A stretch of DNA of 64,000 nt from an uncultured Gammaproteobacteria bacterium (GTDB lineage: Bacteria > Pseudomonadota > Gammaproteobacteria > Pseudomonadales > Azotimanducaceae), in the NCBI GenBank assembly GCA_913050215.1, contig CAJXBG010000003.1, forward strand, positions 1 through 64,000, written 5' to 3'. A model generated the notes under the pieces. That model saw only the letters and a list, made by a program, of their open reading frames with translations. It made no database searches and had not been told where the DNA came from. Within the stretch, counting starts at the first letter, position 1, and each line of letters starts with the position of its first letter. Shown here piece by piece: positions 31,635 to 33,756 of this stretch. Made by a program: the position numbers and the translations under genes.

Positions 31635-31955
31635 ATGAGTAATGCCGACAACACCGAAACTGTCACTGTTTCGATTCTGGACAAGGACTACAAGATAAAT
31701 TGTAGCCCGGAAGAGGTCACCGCGCTCATGCAGTCATCCAACTACGTCGATAGCAAAATGCGCGAGATAAAATCTGGCGCTGCAATATTGAGCCTAGACA
31801 GAATTGCAGTGATGACCGCGCTAAACCTGGCAAATGAGTTTCTGGCTGAAAAGACAAAGGCCAACTCTGTCATCGATTCCAAATCCAATGAGATCAACCA
31901 ATTGACCGCTAAGCTCGATCAGGCCCTAATTCGTCTCAAATCTATTAATCGTTAA
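31635..31955 (+). CDS. zapA: Cell division protein ZapA
   Basis: A 106-aa FtsZ-ring cross-linker. TVSILDKDYKINCSPEEV (about 8-25) is the ZapA globular head and the C-terminal half is a coiled coil (EINQLTAKLDQALIRLKS), giving the dumbbell tetramer. RIAVMTALNLANEFL is also typical. It lies directly upstream of 6S RNA and the folate cyclo-ligase, the conserved zapA-ssrS-ygfA order. Confidence 0.95.
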   Translation: MSNADNTETVTVSILDKDYKINCSPEEVTALMQSSNYVDSKMREIKSGAAILSLDRIAVMTALNLANEFLAEKTKANSVIDSKSNEINQLTAKLDQALIRLKSINR

Positions 31956-31979: not shown

Positions 31980-32165
31980 TCACCTCCCTGGGTTGTTTGC
32001 CAGTCGTTATGTCCTCGACCCTTTATGCGCAAACCAGGAGGTCTTTTTCCACGGTGAGTGTGCATGTCCGGTTTTCCGGAACGCCTGTAGCCTGTTAGAG
32101 ACCACCGCCTTGAACCGCTGGGTTCAAGGGCCTACACAGACAGCGGCAATCTGGGGAGCTTATTT
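31980..32165 (+). ncRNA. ssrS: 6S RNA
   Basis: About 185 nt with the 6S layout. The closing stem is CTCCCTGGGTTG (31984-31995) with CAATCTGGGGAG (32147-32158), 12 continuous pairs including G-U. The conserved 3' element CCTTGAACCGCTGGGTTCAA and the following GCGGC segment match E. coli 6S closely. 6S RNA mimics an open promoter and sequesters sigma-70 RNA polymerase in stationary phase. A TATACT at 31969-31974 puts the transcription start near 31981. Position between zapA and the cyclo-ligase gene confirms it. Exact ends are estimates. Confidence 0.92.
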
Positions 32166-32181
32166 CTGATCGAGGCACGTG

Positions 32182-32823
32182 ATGAACAAACAGACACGTC
32201 ATCGATTAAGACAAACCGCTCGCGCTGCGCGCAGAAGTATTTCTCTCGAATATCAACAGTACGCGGCCCAACGTGCCTGCGATTTCCTGCAGACTGATTC
32301 CGTGTTCCTCCGGTCCCGGCACATTGCTTCCTACACAGCCTTCGACGGTGAGCTAAGTCCGGCGAAAATCGCTCAAACTGCCGAGAAGCGCGGCAAAAAA
32401 AACTACTTACCACTTATCTCGGATTACATCAGACCCTGGGAGAAAACCAGACTCCTGTTTCAACCGTGCAACCCACGCAGTGACGGGCTGGAACCAAACA
32501 GATACGGTATCCCCGAACCTCGCTACGCTCCGCAGCTCAACATGGCACCCTCGATGCTTGACCTCGTGATCATGCCACTGGTCGCTTTTGACTCACAATT
32601 CAACCGACTAGGCATGGGGAAAGGGTATTACGACAGAACGTTCGGAGAAAACTTGAGGTGGCGACGGCCCTATTTACTTGGCCTGGCCTATGCCTCCCAG
32701 CAGTTAGCGCAACTCGATGCAACTGAACTGGATGTTCCGTTGGACGGTGTCCTGACGGAGGAAGGTATTACTTGGAGGAAAAAGGTATTACTTGGAGGAA
32801 AATGGCTAGAAAGTTACCGATGA
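32182..32823 (+). CDS. 5-formyltetrahydrofolate cyclo-ligase
   Basis: A 213-aa enzyme (MTHFS, YgfA) converting 5-formyl-THF to 5,10-methenyl-THF with ATP. The N-terminal RHRLRQTARAARRS binds ATP; FNRLGMGKGYYDRTF is the family signature; LDVPLDGVLTEEGITW is the usual C-terminal strand. The ATG at 32182 has GAGG 6 nt upstream, better than the GTG at 32179. The last 15 residues are encoded by a 20-bp tandem duplication that shifts frame, so the C-terminal tail is novel. It follows 6S RNA by about 16 nt and could be processed from the same transcript. Confidence 0.93.
   Translation: MNKQTRHRLRQTARAARRSISLEYQQYAAQRACDFLQTDSVFLRSRHIASYTAFDGELSPAKIAQTAEKRGKKNYLPLISDYIRPWEKTRLLFQPCNPRSDGLEPNRYGIPEPRYAPQLNMAPSMLDLVIMPLVAFDSQFNRLGMGKGYYDRTFGENLRWRRPYLLGLAYASQQLAQLDATELDVPLDGVLTEEGITWRKKVLLGGKWLESYR
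32764..32803. repeat. 20-bp tandem duplication in the cyclo-ligase 3' end
   Basis: Two adjacent 20-nt copies (32764-32783 and 32784-32803) beginning GGTATTACTTGGAGG differ only at their last base. Because 20 is not a multiple of three, the second copy is read in another frame. Confidence 0.95.
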
Positions 32824-32867
32824 AAAACCGATCAAAATAGAAACACCGCAATTTGACTAACTGCTGG

Positions 32868-32960
32868 TCAAAAACCCAAAACTTGGCCGATTGCATTCAC
32901 GGCGACACCCAGTGCAAATACCACAAAAAGTACCATGACCAAATCGGGACGTTTTTTCAT
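32868..32960 (-). CDS. 30-residue single-span membrane microprotein
   Basis: A 30-codon reading frame with ATG at 32960 and TGA at 32868-32870. It begins MKKRPDLVMVLFVVFALG and is hydrophobic to the end (ending AIGQVLGF): a positively charged N-terminus followed by one membrane helix (about 7-27). A TAGGTG ribosome site lies 7-8 nt before the ATG. I recall small proteins starting RKRPDLV in other gammaproteobacteria, which supports it, but no function is known to me. It sits alone on the minus strand between the cyclo-ligase and deformylase genes. A possible promoter is TTGCTT-17-TATCTT upstream. Confidence 0.65.
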   Translation of the reverse strand: MKKRPDLVMVLFVVFALGVAVNAIGQVLGF

Positions 32961-33216
32961 AGATTACACCTACAGGCGCTATGTCGGGCGATTCACAAGG
33001 TTGGACAAGATATAACCAGACAGGAAAATAAGCAAGCCTTATATAACTATATTTCATTAACTTAGGTTCCATTCATAACAATGGTTTAAATTAATTTATG
33101 GGTTGGCGAATTTGACCTGCTAAGTCAATGCCAACCAGTCGCACCTTATCGGACGCTTTTACGGCGCTCGTCCATTCAGGTATTCTCCGAGTCAAGTTCA
33201 ATATTTGAGACAAACC

Positions 33217-33756
33217 ATGTCTGTTCAAGAAATAATCAGGCTAGGTCATCCGACACTTCGCCAAACGGCCGCTCCCTTTCCGCTTGAAAAGATTCAATCA
33301 GCAGAATTCGAAGAACTGGTTGATGATCTAAGGCAGACCCTTGCCGATAGCGGCGGCATAGGCCTTGCTGCTCCCCAAATCAATGTTTCAGTTCAAGTTG
33401 CGGTCATCGAGATTTCGAATCCCAAAACCCGTTATGGTGAGGTCAAAACCTTACCCTTCACAGTTTTTGTGAACCCCGTGATTTCAGTGCTGGATCCAGC
33501 GGTCGCTGGATACTGGGAAGGCTGTCTTTCGGTACCGGGCATGATGGGATTTGTTGAGCGGCCACAACATATTAAAGTCGATTATTTTGATGATCAGGGC
33601 CGCGAGCAGACCATGGAGCTCTCTGGCTTTCTCGCCACTGTGTTCCAACACGAATTTGACCACCTTTACGGCCACCTTTATGTCGACAAGCTACTAGACC
33701 CTAAACTCTTTTGTTTTGAAGAGGAATATTTGAAATTCCACGTTGATCCCGAATAG
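33217..33756 (+). CDS. def: Peptide deformylase
   Basis: A 179-aa metalloenzyme removing the formyl group from nascent proteins. All three motifs are present: GIGLAAPQI (motif 1), EGCLSVPG with the metal-binding Cys (motif 2) and QHEFDHL with the two His and catalytic Glu (motif 3). The frame begins upstream at a TTG, but ATG 33217 gives the normal N-terminus MSVQEIIRLGHPTLR. It stands alone, without fmt, so it is probably an accessory paralogue rather than the def-fmt copy. Confidence 0.95.
   Translation: MSVQEIIRLGHPTLRQTAAPFPLEKIQSAEFEELVDDLRQTLADSGGIGLAAPQINVSVQVAVIEISNPKTRYGEVKTLPFTVFVNPVISVLDPAVAGYWEGCLSVPGMMGFVERPQHIKVDYFDDQGREQTMELSGFLATVFQHEFDHLYGHLYVDKLLDPKLFCFEEEYLKFHVDPE

Follow-up and report, generated by a model that had tools for sequence, protein, structure and literature searches.

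The ZapB-ZapA-SsrS-FAU1-EVE neighbourhood has been described (PMC7641849), and it is the genomic locus of the microgene reported here. In many relatives EVE or ilvA flanks the microgene; the microgene is encoded on the strand opposite to that of fau and EVE. A term search of that article found no small membrane protein. In E. coli K-12, ibsC follows fau directly on the minus strand, and sibC lies opposite it. IbsC/SibC thus resembles the microgene in being a minus-strand, hydrophobic micro-ORF directly after fau and convergent with it. It differs in that IbsC has 19 aa, has an antisense RNA partner and tolerates mutation, being still toxic after extensive changes, even frameshifts (PMC7192591).

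Small single-pass membrane proteins are a known kind rather than one homologous family. CydH/YnhF, MgtR and MgtU are similar to the microprotein in size and in having one helix, with no family membership: their profiles reached only chance-level E values (0.019-0.043, one member each). A proteogenomics study of P. stutzeri reports 16 novel small proteins (PMC10433244). Our literature searches named no such gene as the one described below; the catalogues GMSC (PMC11364881) and sORFdb (PMC11796252) may list it as an unnamed cluster. Here we analyse a 64 kb stretch of DNA from an uncultured gammaproteobacterium, hereafter the window.

Results

An initial annotation of this DNA had proposed a 30-residue frame on the minus strand at 32868-32960, after the 6S RNA locus and between ygfA-type and deformylase genes. 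The frame is there, running from an ATG to a TGA as read and translated from the sequence, and the gene positions given by Pfam and Rfam agree with those flanks (Table 1). It lies 44 nt past the fau stop, convergent with fau, and no intrinsic terminator was found in this gap of the window. An open frame of such length is no evidence on its own, because 141 ORFs of at least 25 aa lie in the surrounding 10 kb. Among the ORFs of 22-60 aa in the window, only the microgene combines at least two K/R in residues 2-6 with a 19-residue stretch of mean hydropathy of at least 2.2. It is single copy in its own genome.

Table 1. Features of the microgene locus in the window
Feature	Position	Strand	Description	Evidence
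zapA	31635-31955		Upstream of fau, along with 6S RNA	
6S RNA (ssrS)	31982..32161	plus		Rfam RF00013, 91.8 bits
fau (ygfA), 5-formyltetrahydrofolate cyclo-ligase	32179..32823	plus	Convergent neighbour	Pfam PF01812, E=6.9e-32
Gap between convergent stops of fau and microgene	32824..32867	none	44 nt	
Microprotein ORF	32868..32960, stop codon included	minus	30 aa, MKKRPDLVMVLFVVFALGVAVNAIGQVLGF	Translation, conserved relatives, pN/pS
Shine-Dalgarno-like AGGTG	32967..32971	minus	6 nt before ATG	Read from sequence
Promoter-like element TTGCTT-N15-TATATC	33009..33035	minus		Same element, same spacing in relatives
Peptide deformylase gene (def)	33220..33756	plus	Divergent neighbour of microgene	Pfam PF01327, E=4.3e-47

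When the protein alone was used as query, 18 matches were obtained in 58 related genomes. The weak matches (E 0.006-0.5) mostly adjoin 6S RNA and fau, an adjacency that is independent of the search, which could not have known the location. Two matches of the first relatives search (L015, L017) were discarded as false, being without fau, without zapA and in the wrong frame context. A profile of 29 relatives was then applied with location ignored. Of 391 genomes from the order, 209 matched at E<=0.05, a count that includes some chance matches at its weak end; the matches listed, well over 100, have E<=1.4e-6. Across the class, 40 of 369 genomes match at E<=0.001. The window's own family gave 38 matching genomes out of 201, about 26 of them strong, and this patchy presence argues against an essential role. 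Named matches, which rest on the narrow alignment A2, include Halomonas elongata, H. caseinilytica and Marinospirillum species, together with Pseudomonadaceae, the K189A clade and the OM182 clade among metagenomes. Judging by these named neighbours, the window probably derives from an uncultured member of the relatives of that marine group. The initial annotation had pointed to small proteins with similar (R)KRPDLV-type starts, and such starts do occur in genomes of Halomonas (MKRKPDLIMVLVLLF...), Marinospirillum and Pseudomonadaceae, for the most part at this locus. Three genomes of family f155 (G189, G301, G397) carry two copies each, one adjoining fau and the second within an open frame of far greater length, 163-179 aa.

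The microprotein ORF is coding and under purifying selection, as shown by computation. The Ka/Ks comparison that the initial annotation had recommended gave pN/pS of 0.22 in the own family, 0.22 in the Halomonas-like, 0.14 in the Pseudomonas-like and 0.16 in the Marinospirillum clade, against about 0.9 in shuffled controls; being Nei-Gojobori counts on 24 codons, with own-family synonymous sites near saturation (pS = 0.80), these ratios are rough and their direction is clear. The Halomonas-like and Pseudomonas-like clades are labelled by the matches they resemble. Controls were made by shuffling alignment columns, which preserves relatedness; their mean pN/pS was 0.86-0.92 and none of 200 shuffles was as low as observed. 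Divergence is concentrated at third codon positions (0.22, 0.005 and 0.50 at positions 1, 2 and 3 in the Pseudomonas-like set). Stops or frameshifts in close relatives, named beforehand as grounds for dismissing the frame, were looked for and none was seen. Conservation of the frame and strong codon-level selection thus sustain the claim of a real, conserved protein, and a non-coding origin was rejected. Three members of the family (L002, L005, L052) have an ORF whose end overlaps fau, and in these some of the constraint may be due to fau. The microprotein frame has matches at 78 loci (E<1e-3), counting some places more than once; the 71-, 70- and 42-aa frames that overlap the microgene match the window's own genome only.

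The single hydrophobic helix noticed at first reading was predicted by AlphaFold2 at residues 7-28 (mean pLDDT 93), and hydropathy is 2.62 over 19 residues. With fewer than 50 aa, one predicted helix and a conserved coding frame, the predicted product fits the small single-pass membrane proteins. Its relatives follow the pattern K/R-R/K-K-P-D-L, helix, G18, S/T/N22, Q26. D6 is found in 79/79 proteins, P5 in 78/79, K4 in 75/79 (R in the other 4) and G18 in 73/79; position 22 is S, T or N in all 79, and Q26 is present in 58/78. Conservation along the helix is periodic, with a best angle of 95 degrees (P=0.003, permutation); periodicity was not significant when scored by residue volume (P=0.84) or majority frequency (P=0.16). 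The basic side of a membrane helix stays cytoplasmic according to the positive-inside rule. Net charge averages +2.1 ahead of the helix and -0.2 behind it, so the N-terminus is predicted to be cytoplasmic. Relatives are 25-73 aa long, and the differences in length fall almost wholly after the helix. We infer that the C-terminus is periplasmic and unconstrained in sequence, almost absent here and up to about 45 residues long elsewhere.

Fau is convergent and directly downstream for 77 of 84 distinct proteins, and at one locus (L012) it lies slightly further off. This arrangement ruled out a leader peptide of a downstream operon. Most loci where the microgene is convergent to fau adjoin 6S RNA. 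Upstream, ilvA is found on the same strand in 38 of the 84 and EVE on the opposite strand in 26. The microgene is co-directional with no constant neighbour, and genomic context consequently names no partner. At L115, fau, microgene and def all lie on one strand through a local inversion that carried the promoter-like element along. That the microgene is inverted there and yet kept argues for retention of the gene itself and not of an antisense relation to fau.

The ribosome site, first described as good, is better called moderate, and this was the sole overstatement of the initial annotation; relatives have stronger, purine-rich sites, e.g. GGGGGAGG or AAGGAG. In most of 15 own-family relatives, a TTGAYT-N15-TATAT(T/C) consensus is found 60-116 nt upstream of the start codon. 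The window's own promoter-like element is weak and not significant alone (P=0.197 against shuffles), and the element reaches P<=0.01 in several own-family relatives. A consensus promoter scan, which covers only spacers of 16-18 and so missed the N15 element, gave 2 sites on the plus strand where 1.0 was expected. TTGTCA-N17-TATAGT occurs in some Halomonas-type genomes, and in some, by sequence inspection, GC-rich hairpins with T tails separate the microgene from fau. From these promoter-like elements and hairpins, we take the microgene as a putative separate transcription unit.

Searches of Pfam, NCBIfam, PADLOC, PDB sequences and PDB folds gave no credible match to the family, and no profile of CydH, MgtR, MgtU or other NCBIfam/Pfam families scored above its curated cut-off. 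Judged by its sequences, the family is real, conserved and uncatalogued in Pfam, NCBIfam, PADLOC and PDB. Its absence from curated family libraries appears to reflect a length of only 25-73 residues, and gene finders are prone to skip a 30-aa frame.

Discussion

We think, with a probability of roughly 0.6, that the microgene is an autonomous gene whose product, an uncatalogued 30-aa single-pass inner-membrane protein, docks on a larger protein of the membrane. The basic N-terminus (KKRPD) would stay in the cytoplasm while the predicted helix spans the membrane, N-in. The conserved helix face (F15, G18, S/T/N22, Q26) and the cytoplasmic K-P-D cap could then form the docking contact with a larger integral membrane protein, whose stability or activity the microprotein would tune in the manner of other small membrane subunits of bacteria. 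Docking is the simplest reading of a constrained K-P-D cap and one constrained helix face with a tail free to vary. The family is widespread among Pseudomonadales, Halomonas and Pseudomonadaceae included, and is kept at the classic locus; as some of its hosts can be cultured, its function is open to direct study.

The helix might instead be a Sec signal, and the C-terminal tail the part that acts in the periplasm. In many members the helix ends in A/T/G-Q-A/S/G, which is compatible with signal peptidase I, and five longer relatives at other loci share the N-terminus and look secreted (L038, L040, L041, L045, L046). However, only a few residues lie beyond the helix in the window's lineage, this protein has V at position 27, which suits cleavage poorly, and the conserved part is the helix and not the tail. 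We therefore regard an exported product as unlikely. A wider set of proteins of about 55-160 aa at other loci (L031, L037, L038, L040, L041, L042, L045, L046) begins with a KPD-helix start and then looks secreted. Several of them adjoin ksgA or transaldolase, and in several the final residue is aromatic, resembling an outer-membrane beta-signal (..RRW, ..EHRW); Pfam gave no match for five of these longer proteins.

Quite unlikely, in our judgement, is an IbsC-like type I toxin, a small hydrophobic peptide that depolarises the membrane and is kept in check by antisense RNA made from the other strand. The size and hydrophobicity of the microprotein would suit such a toxin, and ibsC shares its slot and orientation. 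However, the microprotein is single copy and kept in place across many families, and its constraint is strict and residue-specific, whereas that of IbsC is loose. Moreover, 6S RNA is the only Rfam match in the window, with no antisense RNA family, PADLOC gave no match for the microprotein, and the Pseudomonas-type protein has no relative on the plasmid or phage records searched. IbsC is not known to carry the K-P-D motif. In E. coli K-12 (L160, 3056851-3056991) ibsC and sibC fill the slot after fau, which may be a coincidence or mark a preferred microprotein site.

It is tempting to go further and see in the microprotein the membrane arm of a 6S/FAU/EVE/ZapA locus that aids the switch between growth and stationary phase. 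The slot after fau would then be a long-lived site for membrane microproteins, held by the KPD protein in Pseudomonadales and their kin and by IbsC in E. coli. We consider this very doubtful. The fixed place of the microgene beside 6S RNA and fau is a reason for interest in its role in stationary phase and folate stress.

Finally, that conservation concerns an RNA, or a transcript antisense to fau or 6S RNA, and not a protein, as the convergence with fau and the overlap with its end in some relatives might suggest, is largely refuted and deserves hardly any credence, given the codon-position pattern, the low pN/pS, silent sites free to change (the own-family pS), a gene kept after inversion relative to fau at L115, and no Rfam match at the microgene.

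The end of fau shows a peculiarity of its own in this genome. Within its final codons, at 32762-32802 of the window, there is a perfect 20-nt tandem duplication (AAGGTATTACTTGGAGGAAA twice), which changes the C-terminus of fau beyond the Pfam domain.
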